Shown here: in pieces, positions 9,157-21,487 of the stretch | How positions within the stretch are numbered: the stretch's first letter is position 1 | Layout: each line of letters starts with the position of its first letter | Source: a virus | Reading direction: 5' to 3' (one strand) | DNA: 29,550 bases | Virus record (IMG/VR): IMGVR_UViG_3300017989_004200 | Span: 1 to 29,550 of that record | Position numbers and translations under genes: made by a program | The notes under the pieces: generated by a model | What the model was told of the DNA's origin: nothing | Seen by the model: the letters and a program-made list of their open reading frames with translations, nothing else | Database searches by the model: none

Positions 9157-11604
9157 ATGACGACGGCAACAGCGACGAAGAAACGCCGGAGGAAAAAGCC
9201 GGCAGGCACGAAGCTGAAATGGCAGAAGTCCGGGCGGGCGCAGGTCGCCGACAGCATGGCCCAGATCGGCGACCTCGCTCCGGGGGCCTTGCGCTGGTGC
9301 ATCTCGCCCGTCAAACCAGGCAACCTGCACAGCGTCCACCTCAGCAGCGAGGAGCTGTTGGAGGAGGGCCGCGACCAGCTCTCCAATCAGTATGGACGAC
9401 TGCAGCCCTTTGCCACGCTGACCGACGCCAAGGCCGCCTGCCAGCGCGTGGAGGACGCCCTGCTGGCCGAGGCGGAGCGACAGAGCGCCGAGCTGCCTGG
9501 CCGGCAGGCAGGCACAGAGACGCAGAGCGACGGAGGGGTTGCCGGTTCTTGTTGGCGCCGGCCCTCCGCCAAGACCATGCTGGTCAAGATCGACGACATC
9601 GCCGTCGTCGCCGGCGCCAACGCCCGGACCGACTTCGCCGAGGCGCCCCTCCTGCAGTTGGCCGGCTCGATCAAGCGCGACGGGCTGCTCCAGCCGGTGG
9701 TGATCAACAAGACCCCGGCGGGCCTGGAGCTGATCGCCGGCGAGCGGCGGCTCCGCGCCGCCCGCGAGGCCGGGGAAAGCCACGTCGAGGCCCGCGTCTA
9801 CGATGGGCTCGACGCCGCGACGGCGGCGCGGATGCGATTGAGCGAGAACCTCAACCGCCGGGACCTCAACCACGTCGAGACCGCCCGGGCCCTGCGGGCC
9901 CTGGCCGACGCCGGGATGACCGTCGCGGAGATCGCCGCGGAGGTCCGAAAGAGCGACGACTACGTGCGGAAGCACCTGGACCTGACCCGGCTGGCGCCGG
10001 AGGTCGCCGATCTCCTCGCCGACGGCCGGCTGCCGGTCAAGCACGCCGAATTGATCTGCCGCGTGGGCGACCCGGCCCGGCAGCGCGAGCTGGCCGAGGA
10101 CGCGACCCGGCTGAGCTGGGACGCGAAGAAGAAGGCCTGGCGCGGCGTCAAGCGCGACTGGATGGGCCGGACCAATCGGAGGACCGACGAGCCCGCCCTG
10201 GACGATGGCGACTTCGTGCTGCCCATGGAGGACCTCCGCGACCGCGTCGAGGCGGTGATGCTCTCCCTGAGCAAGCACGGCTGGCCCAAGGGGGAGCCCT
10301 ACGCCGGCAGGCGGGCCTGCGAGGGCTGCCCGGACAACACGGCCACCTATGCCGATCAGCCGACGCTGTTCGCCGGGCTCGCCCCGCGCGGCTCGGCGAA
10401 GCGGGGCCACTGCACCAACGAGGCCTGCTACCGGGCCAAGGAGAAGGCCTGGGAGAAGGTCAAGGCGAAGCGCAAGGCCGCCGCCGAGGCCAAGCAGGCC
10501 GAGCGGATCAAGAAGGCCCGCAAGGCCGGCCTGGACGTCTGCGCCGCCTGCGGCAAGGTCGCCGACGCGGATGAGAGCTTCGACGACAGCAAGGACCGCA
10601 AGCTGTGCCCACAGTGCCTCAAGCGCTATCGGAAGGCCAGCGAGCGCTCGGGCGCCGGCCACGGCTACGACGCCGCGCAGAAGCGGATGAAGGAGATGCA
10701 GCGGAAGTGGCCCTGGACGGCCGAGCAGCGCTTCGCCGTGGCCCTGTACGACTACGGCGTGGCGGTCGGCCGGCGGCTGCACGACTGGGCGTTGCAGGTC
10801 CCCCACCTGCCCGACGACGCCGCCGACGTGGCCCTGTACCTGGTGGCCCGGTGGGACGACTGGACGGAGATCGGCGCCCGCGACCTGCCCGACCCGGCCG
10901 TCTTTCTGCAAGGCGGCTGGGAGGCGGCGGACCTCCGGCGCTGCCTCTGCCGGATCCTCGAATGCAGTTGCATGAACGACGCCGACCAGCCGGGCGTCTC
11001 GAACTGGCAGCCCGCAATCGCGAACGTCCCCCTGTCCGACGTGGCCCTGGCCGACATCGCCCTCCTGGAGGCCCTGGCGGGCCACTGGGGCGTCGAGCTG
11101 CCCGCCCGGCCCACGGCCGAGGGCGTCCAGGCCGAACAGGGGGTCGCCGAGCTGGCCCAGCGGATCGGGGCGATCGCCAAGAAGCCCGACGGGCCGGCGA
11201 AGCTGACCGAGCTGCTGGACGGGCTGGGCGACCACGCCCCGCTGGACGCGGTCCTGGCCGACCCGAAGCTGGCGAAATGGAAGCGGGCGGTGATCTCCGA
11301 ACACCGCACGCGGGCGGCGGGCGACCCGCGGGCGGCGGCCGCGGAACCCGCCGCCGCCGGCGAAGCCGACTCGGCGGCGCAGGGCGTGCCCCCCGGCAAG
11401 CGGACGCTGTACGAGCAGCAGGCGGCCCTGGTCCGCGGCGGCCGGCGGAGGGACGCCGTGCCGGTCATCGAGGCCTGCGAGGACCTCGAGCTGCTTCAAG
11501 AGGCCCTCGGCGCCGGCCTCACCGGCGACTGGCGGCGGGCGGCCGTGCGGAAGCGGATCGCCGCCCTGGGCGGAGAACCGGAAGCGGACCAGGCCGGCCA
11601 ATGA
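9157..11604 (+). CDS. Large ParB-domain protein with zinc-binding segment
   Basis: The 815-residue protein appears to be a composite. Residues 1-125 are a small module (TKLKWQKSGRAQVADSMAQI, ending in a helix) of a type otherwise seen as separate phage proteins. Residues 126-140 are encoded by a CACAGAG repeat. From about 141 a ParB/Spo0J region follows: MLVKIDDIAV, ELIAGERRLRAAREAG (the ParB nuclease/CTPase box), RLSENLNRRDLNHVETA, and an HTH, MTVAEIAAEVRKSDDYVRKH. Cysteines at CEGCPDN, CTNEACY, CAACGK and CPQCLKRY suggest one or two zinc sites near 385-490. The C-terminal 300 residues are helical. No ParA is nearby, so a role in phage DNA replication or transcription is as likely as partitioning. 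An internal ATG at 9577 could start a ParB-only product. Confidence 0.8.
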   Translation: MTTATATKKRRRKKPAGTKLKWQKSGRAQVADSMAQIGDLAPGALRWCISPVKPGNLHSVHLSSEELLEEGRDQLSNQYGRLQPFATLTDAKAACQRVEDALLAEAERQSAELPGRQAGTETQSDGGVAGSCWRRPSAKTMLVKIDDIAVVAGANARTDFAEAPLLQLAGSIKRDGLLQPVVINKTPAGLELIAGERRLRAAREAGESHVEARVYDGLDAATAARMRLSENLNRRDLNHVETARALRALADAGMTVAEIAAEVRKSDDYVRKHLDLTRLAPEVADLLADGRLPVKHAELICRVGDPARQRELAEDATRLSWDAKKKAWRGVKRDWMGRTNRRTDEPALDDGDFVLPMEDLRDRVEAVMLSLSKHGWPKGEPYAGRRACEGCPDNTATYADQPTLFAGLAPRGSAKRGHCTNEACYRAKEKAWEKVKAKRKAAAEAKQAERIKKARKAGLDVCAACGKVADADESFDDSKDRKLCPQCLKRYRKASERSGAGHGYDAAQKRMKEMQRKWPWTAEQRFAVALYDYGVAVGRRLHDWALQVPHLPDDAADVALYLVARWDDWTEIGARDLPDPAVFLQGGWEAADLRRCLCRILECSCMNDADQPGVSNWQPAIANVPLSDVALADIALLEALAGHWGVELPARPTAEGVQAEQGVAELAQRIGAIAKKPDGPAKLTELLDGLGDHAPLDAVLADPKLAKWKRAVISEHRTRAAGDPRAAAAEPAAAGEADSAAQGVPPGKRTLYEQQAALVRGGRRRDAVPVIEACEDLELLQEALGAGLTGDWRRAAVRKRIAALGGEPEADQAGQ
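9513..9527 (+). repeat. CACAGAG-family unit inside the ParB-domain gene
   Basis: CACAGAGACGCAGAG lies within the coding sequence at the junction between the N-terminal module and the ParB domain. It is preceded by a TGCCTG/CAGGCA hairpin at 9494-9510. It is read in frame as TETQS and neighbours. Confidence 0.6.
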
Positions 11605-16537: not shown

Positions 16538-16593
16538 CGGAGATTCAGCAGTGACAGTCGCAGAACCCGGATGTCCCGATGGCACATCGGCGG
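16469..16593 (+). repeat. Degenerate ~80-bp tandem duplication
   Basis: GACAGTCGCA occurs at 16469-16478 and 16553-16562, and GGCACATCGGCGG at 16502-16514 and 16581-16593. The order and orientation are the same and the offsets are 84 and 79 bases, so a diverged duplication with a small indel explains it. The second copy covers the start of the ParB-domain gene at 16579. Confidence 0.6.
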
Positions 16594-17232
16594 AAGGCCG
16601 CGGCGGGCTTGAGGCGCATCAGCCCGGCCCTGCGGCCCCTGGCCGTCCCGATCCGCCAGCTCCACCCCGACCCGGGCAACGTCCGCCGGCACGACGAGCG
16701 GAACCTGGAGGCGATCGCGGCCAGCCTCACTGCCTACGGCCAGCAGGCCCCCGTGGTCTTCACCCGCCGCGGGCGGCGGAAGGTCGTCACCAAGGGGAAC
16801 GGCGTCCTGGCCGCGGCCAAGCGTCTCGGCTGGACGCACCTGGCGGCGGTTCCCAGCGAGCTGACCGGGCGGGCGGCCAGGGCCTTCGCGATCGCCGACA
16901 ACCGCGCCAGCGACCTGAGCGAGTTCGACCCCGAGCTGCTGGCGGCGCAGCTCGCCGAGCTGGCCGACGGGGACGCCGGGGAGCTGGCCGCCCTGGGCTT
17001 CGACGCCGAGGAGATCGCCGAGCTGCTGGCCGCCCCGGCGGGGCGGCAGTCGGCCGAGACGCCGGCGACGGTGCGGGAGTTCTTCGCCGACCGGCCGCCG
17101 AGCTGGACGTGGGTGCTGATCGGCGTGGAGACCGTCCGCTTCCACGAGGTCCAGTCCGCCGTGGAGCGGGCGGCGGGCGTCGACGGCGCGGTCGTGAGGA
17201 CCTCGGTGACCGATGACCCGGCAGACCGATAA
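16579..17232 (+). CDS. ParB N-terminal-domain protein, upstream of a methyltransferase-like gene
   Basis: The 217-residue protein begins with a ParB-like nuclease/CTPase fold (VPIRQLHPDPGNVRRHDERN, AIAASLTAYGQQAPVVFTRR, VVTKGNGVLAAAKRLGW, RAFAIADNRASDLSEFD). This short form is frequent in phages, often next to or fused with DNA methyltransferases. The middle is helical and acidic (LLAAQLAELADGDAGELAAL, EEIAELLAAP). The C-terminal 50 residues form a small beta-rich domain. It overlaps the methyltransferase-like gene by 20 bases. The ATG at 16579 has a poor ribosome site, while an out-of-frame GTG at 16551 has a good one, so the true start is uncertain. Confidence 0.75.
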   Translation: MAHRRKAAAGLRRISPALRPLAVPIRQLHPDPGNVRRHDERNLEAIAASLTAYGQQAPVVFTRRGRRKVVTKGNGVLAAAKRLGWTHLAAVPSELTGRAARAFAIADNRASDLSEFDPELLAAQLAELADGDAGELAALGFDAEEIAELLAAPAGRQSAETPATVREFFADRPPSWTWVLIGVETVRFHEVQSAVERAAGVDGAVVRTSVTDDPADR

Positions 17233-17800: not shown

Positions 17801-18090
17801 GGGGATTTCCGGGGAAATCTCGCCCATCGCGGTAAAGCCCGTCCCCGGGCCCGTCTACGGCGGGGAAAAATGCGGGTTTCCGGCGGTTTTGACTCGGCGG
17901 AAGTGCTTATAACGGCTATACTTGTAGCAGATGCAGGGATGGGCATGACAACCGATCTGGGTGCGATTGAGGCCCGCCGGCGTCGGCGGGCAAATGCCAG
18001 AGGCGGGGCCCGGGTGCCGTCGGGGATGACAGCCCGGACCCCGCTCCGACATCAGGTGCGTGGATTGTACCACGCGGGAAGGAGAGAGCC
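17801..18090 (+). promoter_or_regulatory. Structured non-coding region with AT-rich promoter-like island
   Basis: No credible gene was found here. The island at 17886-17930 stands out in GC-rich DNA and holds TTGACT (17889-17894), TATAAC (17908-17913) and TATACT (17917-17922), but the spacings of 13 and 22 bases do not make a normal sigma70 promoter. Downstream, GCCCGCCG (17972-17979) and CGGCGGGC (17984-17991) form a perfect 8-bp stem with a GCGT loop, and GTCGG/CCGAC words flank a further GC-rich stem near 18017-18050. It ends in GGAAGGAGAG before ATG 18091. It may be a 5' leader or a small RNA. Confidence 0.4.
17804..17819. repeat. Small palindrome after the methyltransferase-like gene
   Basis: GATTTCC-GG-GGAAATC lies three bases after the stop codon at 17800. 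No T-tract follows, so if it terminates transcription it would not be by the standard intrinsic mechanism. Confidence 0.4.
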
Positions 18091-18903
18091 ATGCAACTGT
18101 TCGAGAAATACCGCCCGGCGACCCTGGATGGGATCGTCGGCCAGGAGGCCGCGGTCGGGCTGATCCGCCGGATCATCGGCCGGAGCGGCTGGGACCGGGA
18201 CGCCCTGTGGATCGAGGGCGACACGGGCACGGGCAAGACCTCCACCGCCCAGGCCCTCGCGCGGGAGCTGGACTGCCCGCCGGGGAGCTGGGGGTACGAG
18301 GAGATCGACGGCGACAAGTGCACGGTGGACGAGGTCCGCCGGCTGGACGAGACGGTCGCCCGCTGCGGCCTGTTCGCCGAGGAGTGGCGGGTCGTCATCG
18401 TCAACGAGGCCCACGCCATGACGGCCCGGGCCATCCAGGCCTGGCTGACGTTCCTGGAGAAGCTCCCCGCCCGCTGGCTGATCGTGTTCACCACGACCGA
18501 GTCGCTGAGGGACCTGTTCGGCAACTTCAATCACGCCTTCGCCGGGCGGGTCAAGGAGATCCGCCTGACGAAGTTCGGGCTGGGCGAGGCCTTCGGGAAG
18601 CGGCTGCGGGAGATCGCCAGGGCCGAGGGCCTCGACGGCCGGCGGCCGGCGGACTACGTCCGGCTGGTGCAGGCCAACCGCGGGGACTTCCGCCGCTGCC
18701 TGCAGCTCGTGGAGATGGGCGAGATGGTCCGCCCCAGCCGGCTGACGGAGGCCCAGCAGAAGGCCGTCAAGAACCTCGTGCGGCGGACCAAGGCCCGCAA
18801 GCGGCGGAAGGCCGCCGGCGGCGGCAAGAAGGCCAAGGCCGGGACGAAGGCGAAGGCGACGAAGGCCCGCAAGGGCGCGAAGGCAGGGAGGCCGAAGAAA
18901 TGA
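18091..18903 (+). CDS. Clamp-loader-like AAA+ ATPase with histone-H1-like tail
   Basis: The 270-residue protein resembles DnaX/RFC small-subunit ATPases. It opens with the clamp-loader signature LFEKYRPATLDGIVGQE. Walker A is GDTGTGKT (43-50). The Walker B position reads VVIVNEAHAM (101-110), with Asn for the usual Asp. IVFTTTE (131-137) is the sensor 1 region, and the helical lid contains NRGDFRRCLQLVEMGEM. The last 50 residues are a Lys/Ala tail (KKAKAGTKAKATKARKGAKA) resembling histone H1 and probably DNA-binding. It is shorter than bacterial DnaX and has no collar partner beside it. It could load the host sliding clamp or remodel DNA. Ribosome site GGAAGGAGAG and a long structured leader precede ATG 18091. 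It overlaps the radical SAM gene by four bases. Confidence 0.8.
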   Translation: MQLFEKYRPATLDGIVGQEAAVGLIRRIIGRSGWDRDALWIEGDTGTGKTSTAQALARELDCPPGSWGYEEIDGDKCTVDEVRRLDETVARCGLFAEEWRVVIVNEAHAMTARAIQAWLTFLEKLPARWLIVFTTTESLRDLFGNFNHAFAGRVKEIRLTKFGLGEAFGKRLREIARAEGLDGRRPADYVRLVQANRGDFRRCLQLVEMGEMVRPSRLTEAQQKAVKNLVRRTKARKRRKAAGGGKKAKAGTKAKATKARKGAKAGRPKK

Positions 18904-19679
18904 AGATCAGCAGGGCGATCTACGAGCCGCGCGGGGCCGCCGCGGAGTACTCCCCCCTGGCGGTGAACCTCTACCGCGGCTGCGGGCACGGCTGCGGGTA
19001 CTGCTACGCCCCGGCCTGCCTGCGGACGGAGCGGGCGAGCTTCCACGGCTCGCCCGCACCGCGGACGGGGATCCTCGACGCCCTGCGGCGCGACGCGGGG
19101 CGGCTCCGCGGGGATCCCCGCCCGGTGCTGCTGTGCTTCACCTGCGACCCCTACCAGCCCCTGGAGGCCGAGGTCGGCCTGACCCGCCGGGCGGTGGAGG
19201 TCCTCGCCGCCGCCGGGGCGGCCGTCCGCATCCTGACCAAGAACGCCCCCCTGGCGATCGCCCGCGACGTGGACGCGCTGACCGCGGCCGGCGTCGACTT
19301 CGGCCAGACGATCATCTTCACGTCCGAGGCCGACCGCCGGCGGTGGGAGCCGCACGCCGCGCCGATCGCGGAGCGGATCGGGGCGATGGAGGCGGCCCGG
19401 GCGGCGGGCCTGCGGACCTGGCTGAGCCTCGAGCCGGTGATCGACCCCGCCCAGGCCCTGGACGTGATCGACCGGCTCGCCCCGACCACCGACCGGATCA
19501 TGGTCGGCAAGCTCAATCACGACCCCCGGCGGGAGCGGGCCGTGGACTGGCGGGCCTTCCTGGCCGAGGCCCTCCGGCGCCTGACCCGCCACGGCTGCGG
19601 CTACACCATCAAGGACGCCCTGTGGCGGTACGCCGACGCGGAGATCCGCGGGGCGTGGCCGCGGACGGCCGGCGGGTAG
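18900..19679 (+). CDS. Radical SAM enzyme, SplB/Rv2578c-like
   Basis: The 259-residue protein has a radical SAM cluster motif C28-GHG-C32-GY-C35, in the context YRGCGHGCGYCYAP. LLCFTCDPYQPLE and AAVRILTKN are characteristic of SplB/Rv2578c-type proteins. TWLSLEPVIDP, IMVGKLNHDP and GCGYTIKDALW follow. Its closest functional model is spore photoproduct lyase, a DNA repair enzyme, but the actual substrate is unknown. It is translationally coupled (ATGA) to the clamp-loader-like ATPase, suggesting joint action on phage DNA, perhaps repair or a base modification step. That link is inference. Confidence 0.8.
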   Translation: MKISRAIYEPRGAAAEYSPLAVNLYRGCGHGCGYCYAPACLRTERASFHGSPAPRTGILDALRRDAGRLRGDPRPVLLCFTCDPYQPLEAEVGLTRRAVEVLAAAGAAVRILTKNAPLAIARDVDALTAAGVDFGQTIIFTSEADRRRWEPHAAPIAERIGAMEAARAAGLRTWLSLEPVIDPAQALDVIDRLAPTTDRIMVGKLNHDPRRERAVDWRAFLAEALRRLTRHGCGYTIKDALWRYADAEIRGAWPRTAGG

Positions 19680-19735
19680 AAACTTGAGCCTGCATGTAAC
19701 GGCCAAGTCTGAGAAGCCCTCTTACCCAATCGGGC

Positions 19736-19764
19736 TTGACAGATTAGGCGAAGAGTGGTAAAAT
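19736..19764 (+). promoter_or_regulatory. Near-consensus sigma70 promoter for the moron genes
   Basis: TTGACA (19736-19741), a 17-base spacer and TAAAAT (19759-19764) give a -35 with six and a -10 with five of six consensus bases. It is the best promoter in the window and reads toward the genes at 19914 and 20368. It should work in the lysogen, independently of phage regulation. Confidence 0.85.
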
Positions 19765-19795
19765 ATTTCACACTGGAGGACAAGCGTCGGGGCAA

Positions 19796-19872
19796 GGAGG
19801 CCCGAAACGTCCCGGATTCCGGGCATCATTAGACCGGAGGCCCGATCAAATTTTTTTACACAGGGCCTTTCT
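19796..19872 (+). promoter_or_regulatory. Leader with repeats and terminator-like attenuator
   Basis: GGAGGCCCGA occurs at 19796-19805 and again at 19836-19845, 40 bases apart. A small hairpin CCCGG-ATT-CCGGG lies between them. After the second copy come ATCAAA and a T7 run, and AGGCCC can also pair with GGGCCT near 19865-19870, followed by TTCTTTT. Alternative pairings of this kind suggest attenuation between promoter and first gene. Confidence 0.4.
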
Positions 19873-19913
19873 TTTCCTGGCCGATTACGCAGAATGAGAA
19901 GGCAAGGTCACCC

Positions 19914-20384
19914 GTGACCAACGTCGCCGCCAAGCCCGAGCCTGTCCGCCTGGACTACTATGGTGGTCCGCGCGATGTCCTCGTTACGCCTCAAGACGAG
20001 GACCGCTTCATGATGAACGTGGAACATGCGGCCTTGGCATGCAGCATTGGGCAGAAGTTCATCCTCCCCTTCCGGAAGCAATTCGAGGAACGGCTCCTGC
20101 CGCTGCTGGCCGCTTGGTTACAGGAACGGCAGGAAGCATTCTGTGACGCTTATGTTACCTTGCGTGAAGGCTGTCTCCTTTTCTTGGTCGTTCGCGCTTC
20201 GGTTCCATACGACCGCAAGTTCGAGGAAGCGCTGGTCGACCTGAGCATGCGCGTCGCCCGCGACGAGGATCTGGACCGAATTGAGCTCCAGACGCTAGCG
20301 CTGCCAAAGGTGCACCAACGCGTTGTGGAGTCTTTTCTAGATTCCCGGATGGCGCTGCAATTCCAGCGTGCCAAACGTACGTGA
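19914..20384 (+). CDS. Moron protein 1, unknown function
   Basis: The 156-residue protein starts at GTG 19914, with GAAGGCAAGG upstream. It appears to be a soluble alpha/beta protein: a long helix (ILPFRKQFEERLLPLLAAWL), strands (AYVTLREGCLLFLVVRASVP), a helix and acidic turn (VDLSMRVARDEDLDRIEL), and a C-terminal helix (VHQRVVESFLDSRMAL). I recognise no family with confidence. The gene has its own promoter, lower GC than its neighbours, and a 17-base overlap with the HEPN-like gene. It is a plausible antitoxin, sensor or partner, but this rests on context only. Confidence 0.7.
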   Translation: MTNVAAKPEPVRLDYYGGPRDVLVTPQDEDRFMMNVEHAALACSIGQKFILPFRKQFEERLLPLLAAWLQERQEAFCDAYVTLREGCLLFLVVRASVPYDRKFEEALVDLSMRVARDEDLDRIELQTLALPKVHQRVVESFLDSRMALQFQRAKRT

Positions 20385-20805
20385 CCATTACGGGCAGGCA
20401 AACCGCAATCAGGGGGTCATCGATCACCTGCTGATTAAGGACCCTCCGTCGCCCGAATGGGTGGCGACGGTAGCTTTCTACAAGGCCCTCCATCTTGTCG
20501 ACGCCGTTTTGGCAATGGCCAAGATACACCCTGCCGATCACGCGAGTCGAGAACGTCACCTTAAATCTGATCGTCGATATAAGCACATTTGCAAACACTA
20601 TCTTCTGCTGCTCAACGTCTCGGTCATCGCCCGTTACTTGTCGGACAGGGGCGGCCGGGCATATCGGACGTTCACAGATTACATGGACTTGGCGGCGGTC
20701 AAAGATCAGGTGCTGAGTCACCTTCTGCACCAGGTCGAAGTCTCGGCGAAGAAGTTCACTGCTCCAGCGCCGCGCCCGGGGAAGCGCCCTAGGAAGAAGA
20801 GCTGA
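20368..20805 (+). CDS. Moron protein 2, HEPN-like helical protein
   Basis: The 145-residue protein starts at GTG 20368. The N-terminal part SPEWVATVAFYKALHLVDAV (28-47), followed by HPADHASRERH, resembles a family of HEPN-fold proteins with FYAALHxVDA and Hxx(S)R signatures. R70 and H77 in RRYKHICKH could form an R-x6-H pair like the HEPN RNase motif, which is suggestive rather than diagnostic. The rest is helical and the C-terminus is basic (PAPRPGKRPRKKS). HEPN proteins are frequent RNases in toxin-antitoxin and abortive-infection systems. Together with the gene at 19914 it forms a self-contained operon that ends before the terminator at 21164-21215. Confidence 0.7.
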   Translation: MPNVRDHYGQANRNQGVIDHLLIKDPPSPEWVATVAFYKALHLVDAVLAMAKIHPADHASRERHLKSDRRYKHICKHYLLLLNVSVIARYLSDRGGRAYRTFTDYMDLAAVKDQVLSHLLHQVEVSAKKFTAPAPRPGKRPRKKS

Positions 20806-20984
20806 GGTCGAGGATTCCCCGCGTCCTGTAGCACTCAAATCGCTTGGTGAAGTGGAGGTCACAGTCTGCATTCCCAATGGTGCCCTCCATTCGCCTCAGA
20901 GCCGCCTGCAAATAGGCCATCCGGTGCCTCCTGGAAGGGGGCACAGGGCTCAAGACCGCCTGTCCGGCCCGGGAATCCCTGCCC

Positions 20985-21011
20985 CTCTGGGGCCCCTGCG
21001 GCTCTGTATCG
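20985..21011. repeat. CACAGAG-family half element (right arm)
   Basis: CTCTGGGGCCCCTGCGG followed by CTCTGTATCG matches the right-arm pattern with one change in the terminal CTGTGTCG. No matching left arm was found close by. Confidence 0.5.
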
Positions 21012-21052
21012 CAGAAAAACCGCCCCGCAAGCCCCGGCCGCCGCTGGGCTTA

Positions 21053-21079
21053 GAAAAAACAGTCCACGCCGTGGACTGT
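21053..21079 (-). terminator. Leftward terminator-like palindrome
   Basis: ACAGTCCACG (21059-21068) and CGTGGACTGT (21070-21079) are perfect inverted repeats around one base. Six A's at 21054-21059 become a T-run after the stem on the minus strand, so it would end leftward transcription. No minus-strand gene to the right is apparent. The AGTCCACG/CGTGGACT ends match the termini of the AATTACACGAA-family element at 7639-7724, so it may be a collapsed copy of that element. Confidence 0.5.
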
Positions 21080-21163
21080 ACCCCCTGGTCAACGCCGCCG
21101 CCGGCGGCCGACACTGAGGGCGTCAACTGAGTGCCGCGCCGGGCCGGGACGCGGCAGAGCTTT

Positions 21164-21215
21164 GCGAGGCACGCCGGGCAGGGCTGCCCCCCTGACGGCG
21201 TGCCTCGCCTTTTTT
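21164..21215 (+). terminator. Strong intrinsic terminator
   Basis: GCGAGGCACGCCG (21164-21176) pairs perfectly with CGGCGTGCCTCGC (21196-21208), a 13-bp stem with a 19-base loop that may itself fold. CTTTTTT (21209-21215) follows at once. It closes the transcripts coming from the moron promoter and from the packaging region, twelve bases before the start of the structural gene at 21227. Confidence 0.9.
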
Positions 21216-21226
21216 GGGAGCCGGGC

Positions 21227-21487
21227 GTGACGACGCCGACGCCGACGGAAGTGGACGCCCTCGACGACTACTCCTACGCCCAGATGGCCAAGCTGTGCCG
21301 GCGGGCGATCGTCACCCTCACCGCATCCCCCGACCAGACCGTCAAGCTCCCCGACGGGAGAGAGTTCACCGTCCAGGACCTCGACCGCCTCCGGCGGGCC
21401 GAGCAGACCTACCGGCGCCTGGCGGCCGAGGCCGCCGAGACGACCCGCCGGGCGGGGGTCGCCGAATTCGGAGCGCCGACCGCATGA
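21227..21487 (+). CDS. gpW-like head-tail connector protein
   Basis: The 86-residue protein starts at GTG 21227, with GGGAG seven bases upstream. It resembles lambda gpW: a helix (YSYAQMAKLCRRAIVTLTAS), a short beta hairpin (QTVKLPDGREFT) and a second helix (VQDLDRLRRAEQTYRRLAAE). Its position right before the portal gene is that of gpW in lambda-like phages. The frame is open back to 21131, but that region encodes the terminator hairpin and is very unlikely to be translated. It overlaps the portal gene by four bases (ATGA). Confidence 0.75.
   Translation: MTTPTPTEVDALDDYSYAQMAKLCRRAIVTLTASPDQTVKLPDGREFTVQDLDRLRRAEQTYRRLAAEAAETTRRAGVAEFGAPTA

Follow-up and report, generated by a model that had tools for sequence, protein, structure and literature searches.

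Among the two-gene systems built around a HEPN protein, the MNT-HEPN dyads carry the antitoxin gene upstream as a rule. Phage-encoded HEPN proteins have been described as well: Tha, a HEPN RNase encoded by a Staphylococcus prophage, protects lysogens (PMC11087260), and the HEPN protein of Thermus phage Tsatsa was proposed by its authors to be a phage-defence effector (PMC11437467). The Rx4-6H motif is usual, not universal, in the HEPN superfamily. In AF0298-type proteins and AbiV, the motif histidine is missing, the basic residue is kept, and a second conserved histidine lies upstream, pointing to a possible alternative active site (Anantharaman et al. 2013, PMC3710099). For inactive HEPN proteins of the MtlR type, a role as a repressor or signal sensor has been proposed.

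Here we describe a two-gene cassette (19736-21215) carried by a planctomycete-type phage. The analyzed DNA, hereafter called the window, comprises 29,550 bases of the IMG/VR virus record IMGVR_UViG_3300017989_004200. We think it rather probable that the two genes, A and B, form a phage-borne (moron) module that is type II toxin-antitoxin-like (abortive-infection) and guards the lysogen.

The cassette has its own promoter, terminator, and base composition

The cassette opens with a sigma-70-type promoter on the plus strand, TTGACA-17-TAAAAT (19736-19764), in which a TG precedes the -10 element. As first read from the sequence, it agrees with the consensus at six of six positions in the -35 element and five of six in the -10 element. 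When both strands of the window were scanned, it was the sole match of at least 11/12, and when the whole window was simulated 100 times with a first-order Markov model, no promoter of this quality appeared. The leader that follows, of approximately 140 nt (19771-19913, plus strand), has no match in Rfam; no structured RNA was found in it, and its sequence is not common to the other loci, the leaders of which are not conserved.

Gene A (19914-20384) and gene B (20368-20805), both on the plus strand with a GTG start, encode an α/β protein of 156 residues, predicted to be an antitoxin or sensor, and a HEPN-fold protein of 145 residues, predicted to be a toxin, respectively. The overlap and the lower GC content attributed to these genes in the original prediction were confirmed: they share 17 nt, and their GC contents are 58.8% and 56.8% versus 70.9% for the window. 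The lowest-GC 890-nt segments of the record all start at approximately 19650-20070, in the cassette (56–58% versus 71%).

An intrinsic terminator on the plus strand (21164-21215) closes the unit. Its stem is the 13-bp one expected, a perfect inverted repeat (21164-21176/21196-21208) followed by TTTTTT, with an RNA folding energy of −42.7 kcal/mol and a z-score of −2.9; a simple terminator scanner passed over it solely owing to its 19-nt loop. Judged by frame and context, the adaptor gene downstream probably starts at 21227 and the portal gene at 21484, and the terminator would therefore be intergenic. The approximately 350 bases from the stop of B to the terminator (20806-21163) are non-coding in appearance, have no match in Rfam, and contain a hairpin-forming near-palindrome, ACAGTCCACGGCGTGGACTGT (21059-21079).

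On its 5′ side, the cassette is flanked by the genes for the terminase large subunit, a ParB-like protein, and a radical-SAM protein, and on its 3′ side by genes for a head-tail adaptor (a weak match), the portal, a protease, and the capsid. Placed between these phage modules, with its own promoter, its own terminator, and an atypical GC content, it has the features of a phage moron, the layout that had been proposed for it. No direct repeats flanking the cassette were found as a trace of insertion. The radical-SAM protein (18060-19679; Pfam 2e-5, PHROG 13321 1e-23) is encoded immediately 5′ of the cassette, within the terminase-portal interval, and two ParB-like genes (9157-11604 and 16579-17232) bracket the terminase large subunit gene.

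Single-protein searches of viral contigs returned no close relatives of the window proteins, nor was a close relative found for the phage. Eight distant prophages have a related portal, the majority of them a related terminase as well, and A and B are missing near the portal in all eight. In the planctomycete prophages L089–L096, the terminase-portal stretch carries differing extra genes, as would suit a slot for variable cargo; L095, for example, has a methylase-like ORF there. Because no integrase was recognized among the window genes searched, lysogeny is an assumption here.

B is predicted to be a HEPN protein of the AF_0298 branch

Neither A nor B has a family in Pfam, PHROGs, PADLOC, or NCBIfam, and direct profile searches with both proteins against these libraries and PDB sequences returned nothing significant. 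B of the window has no match to the Pfam HEPN family PF05168, and a profile comparison with a small, poor PF05168 alignment gave a probability of 0.6. The AlphaFold2 model of B, built on a five-sequence alignment, has a pLDDT of 91.3. Its top match in VIA-align is AF_0298 (PDB 2hsb), with a Z score of 15.8 and 2.4 Å over 119 residues, and further matches include the sacsin HEPN domain (Z 13.7), TT1696 (12.9), ST0689 (12.7), TM0613 (11.2), and HepT entries (10.7). The top score exceeds the level at which VIA-align warns about helical bundles, and rows 1–13 are all HEPN proteins, one of which, PDB 3mfn, is annotated only as "unknown function". Foldseek gave weak E-values, but HEPN proteins took the four leading places in its list. 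These models indicate that B has the four-helix HEPN fold suspected at the outset and, by prediction, belongs to the AF_0298/PF05168-like branch. A chain of sequence matches also connects B with the Pfam family, leading from the window B to the B of phage contig L015, from there to the annotated HEPN protein of phage Tsatsa (gene 33; 7e-4), and from the latter to the Pfam HEPN profile, for which it passes the gathering cut-off (22.5 bits versus 22).

The R-x6-H pair put forward as the active site of B, R70 and H77, exists in the protein but does not hold as a motif. An Rx4-6H pair arises in 94% of shuffles of the R/H-rich B, and of the 31 B-family sequences, 7 retain R70 and 8 retain H77; the pair is at chance level and unconserved, and we rejected it. 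A canonical Rx4-6H is absent at the motif position of B and is not conserved among the 31 sequences. The family has instead a signature composed of W31, FY37-38, H58-x2-R61, and ARY88-90. H58 (codon at 20539-20541, plus strand) and R61 (20548-20550, plus strand) are each found in 30 of the 31 sequences and R89-Y90 (20632-20637, plus strand) in all 31, with W31, F37, and Y38 likewise conserved. When B is aligned with members of PF05168 and with relatives of solved structure, S85-x4-Y90 occupies the motif position; R89-Y90 aligns with the RY of RYPD proteins, and the position reads R-x2-ADY or RYPD in PF05168 relatives. B therefore carries both sequence features of the AF0298/AbiV type, an upstream histidine (H58, 30/31) and a basic residue in the motif (R89, 31/31). 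On these sequence grounds, we propose H58, the predicted alternative catalytic histidine, together with R89 and also R61, as a candidate alternative RNase site, a reading that is the most economical because the best structural match of B is AF_0298 itself. For mutagenesis of B, H58, R61, and R89 should supersede R70 and H77 as the residues of interest.

Since the canonical catalytic motif is absent, B could bind RNA without being catalytic. A catalytically dead HEPN protein that binds RNA or nucleotides would make A-B a regulatory pair, acting as a repressor or signal sensor rather than a toxin-antitoxin. The missing and unconserved Rx4-6H speaks for this, as does the view that HEPN domains devoid of the motif are likely non-catalytic RNA binders (Anantharaman et al., PMC3710099). 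However, B has kept H58, R61, and R89 as nearly invariant polar residues, unlike HEPN domains described as having lost every conserved polar residue, HEPN proteins with no such motif reportedly also emerged as toxins in a genome-scale screen (PMC3710099), and the solitary, patchy, and mobile two-gene layout described below is typical for toxin-antitoxin modules. We consider a dead HEPN protein in a regulatory pair unlikely.

The partner protein A

An MNT-like fold was suspected for A before the structure search, because its elements follow the order expected of MNT: a helix, two strands, a helix, and a strand. The AlphaFold2 model of A, built on a three-sequence alignment, is an α/β structure with a pLDDT of 83.7. 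Rank 1 in its VIA list is the nucleotidyltransferase 1ylq (Z 6.2, 83 of 93 residues, 2.8 Å) and rank 3 the nucleotidyltransferase HI0073 (Z 5.9), and MntA/MNT antitoxin entries turn up repeatedly in both structure-match lists; the viral structure library gave no informative match. Taken with the order of elements, these matches would agree with a divergent HEPN/MNT system, in which A would be an antitoxin of the nucleotidyltransferase fold, either active or dead only recently, and would modify B, perhaps at Y90. We regard this as quite improbable, since the MNT signature GSx8-12DxD (GSx10DxD) occurs in 0 of 29 A sequences, hhalign of A against planctomycete MNT proteins gave a probability of 0.1, and unrelated folds, namely KH, ferredoxin-like, and ligase domains, score within one Z unit of the MNT matches. 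With the signature absent and the profile comparison negative, A was rejected as a canonical MNT, and its relationship to MNT, drawn from a model, is a lead rather than a result. The structure search once suggested for both proteins has thus given a HEPN fold for B, whereas for A its matches are tied with unrelated folds.

From its gene position, A is presumably the antitoxin of the pair. What weighs against the toxin-antitoxin reading is that A has no recognized antitoxin fold and that the structural matches of its model are middling and common to the unrelated domains named above. It is conceivable, but doubtful, that B is a HEPN toxin with a rearranged site (H58 with R89/R61) and A an antitoxin that is derived from a nucleotidyltransferase, no longer has the catalytic residues, and neutralizes by binding. 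If true, this would show an AMPylating HEPN/MNT system turning into a plain protein-protein antitoxin.

A and B are near-constant partners

A single genome scan returned one relative of B, in the Planctomycetota contig L002, and the gene 5′ of it is homologous to A (29% identity, 3e-22). A two-sequence A profile found A in 6 of 294 Planctomycetota genomes, with B directly downstream in all six, and a seven-sequence A profile, run on 398 genomes of one class, found it in 31; at 29 of the 30 loci that this search gave, a B-like ORF comes after A. The module thereby occurs in approximately 2% of the sampled Planctomycetota genomes and 8% of those of one class; the sampling covered this single phylum and class. 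The gap between A and B ranges from −41 to +18 nt across 16 pairs. The identity matrices of A and B are correlated (Mantel r 0.60, 0/2000 permutations), a value that includes the shared ancestry of the carrying genomes. These comparisons support the view that A and B co-diverge as near-constant partners. The partner of B, unrecognized at first, still lacks a database name but is no longer an orphan, being a defined family co-inherited with B.

Diverged B genes were found at seven loci in six further planctomycete genomes, and in six of the seven an ORF of approximately 130 to 290 amino acids ends at or near the start of B and has an A-like C-terminal pattern by eye. In the Planctomycetota genomes L042 (1405-2628), L043, and L044, a diverged B belongs to a three-gene operon. 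Its first gene encodes a DUF6941 protein (PF22091, 6e-19 in L042, with ORFs resembling it by eye in L043 and L044), its second a partner of approximately 130 amino acids with a pattern VxVxxxDDPxxLxDxIFxAExEM, and its last the HEPN-like protein; the operon is possibly a related three-component system. In L002 (7015-9673), the A-B pair lies between two minus-strand ORFs with a common C-terminal sequence (PYSHGATDDFGYQAVDQIATIYDLHATMLHL...), which suggests that it came in with a partial gene duplication.

A profile search of viral contigs with B returned four relatives. In the phage contig L012, an A-B pair has a portal-like gene on one side and, on the other, the genes preceding a capsid-like gene (by eye), a position that differs from that of the window pair, and TTGACA-16-TAGAAT (11/12) stands 5′ of this copy. 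The low-GC phage contigs L013, L014, and L015 encode B with a diverged partner in the same general pattern by eye. Thermus phage Tsatsa likewise carries a diverged version, and a pair on a cyanobacterial (Dolichospermum) plasmid is a weaker match. Sequence comparison thus indicates that the pair or diverged versions of it occur in unrelated replicons. Sinorhizobium plasmid hits obtained for the B of L009 were discarded as chance matches to other genes.

In the window phage and in L012 alike, the pair is located among the head genes, which would suit a late or assembly accessory pair that aids phage growth and is unrelated to defence. This seems very unlikely to us, as the cassette has a promoter, a terminator, and a GC content of its own, the majority of homologues stand alone on chromosomes, away from recognized phage genes, and the distant prophages with related portal and mostly related terminase do without A and B near the portal. 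No defence island was recognized by eye around the pair in the inspected host genomes, where it stands alone, and PADLOC gave only two isolated weak hits for the 31 B homologues. The pair is undescribed in the open-access literature searched, within the limits of that library. A-B is a small conserved family, unnamed in the protein-family or defence databases searched.

Proposed function

We read A-B as a type II toxin-antitoxin-like module because its two small adjacent genes, mostly overlapping, with the presumed antitoxin A first, their constant pairing, and their solitary scatter match the type II layout. A toxin-antitoxin or anti-phage role, for which the cassette was originally singled out, is the best current reading. 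The dedicated, constitutive-type promoter would drive A first and B second, with translation probably coupled through the overlap, and the strong terminator would shield the structural genes from the cassette. We infer that B is toxic and that A neutralizes it by binding it directly and holding it silent. Infection by another phage may be the trigger: A would be lost or titrated, B released, and the cell halted, to the benefit of the lysogen population, which would be protected. Freed B might cleave RNA, or bind and block it, via a site that H58 forms with R89, and with R61, in the cleft of the HEPN fold. In a lysogen, the pair would then act in abortive infection or addiction, comparable to Tha and to the proposal made for Tsatsa.

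A-B defines a conserved, phage-carried HEPN-plus-partner module and suggests that planctomycete phages carry toxin-antitoxin or defence functions. H58, R61, and R89 are specific residues for testing what was proposed in 2013 for HEPN proteins of the AF0298 type, namely that an alternative site preserves their RNase activity.

Comparison with known systems

The AF_0298/PF05168 branch (AF_0298, TT1696, ST0689, and TM0613) resembles B in its predicted fold and, like B, lacks Rx4-6H and has a conserved upstream histidine and a basic residue-tyrosine pair at the motif position. B differs from this branch in having no PF05168 match, a signature of its own, and a partner devoid of the MNT signature. 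The HEPN/MNT systems (HepT/MntA) share with A-B two small overlapping genes, a partner 5′ of the HEPN gene, and a partner fold that is weakly MNT-like in A, whereas A lacks GSx10DxD and B lacks Rx4H(xY). AbiV, an Abi protein with a HEPN fold, has a histidine outside the motif as in AF0298, comparable to H58 of B; its structural match to the model of B is weak (Z 7.3). Tha, a prophage-encoded HEPN RNase, resembles the cassette in having its own control (PMC11087260), but it is a single protein of 301 amino acids with an Rx4H motif and a tail-protein trigger, and it has no A-type partner. Genes 34/33 of Thermus phage Tsatsa are also phage-borne, with a small overlapping gene preceding a HEPN protein homologous to B, although that upstream partner has no recognizable sequence homology to A. 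A-B is thus neither a canonical HEPN/MNT system nor a PADLOC-listed system.
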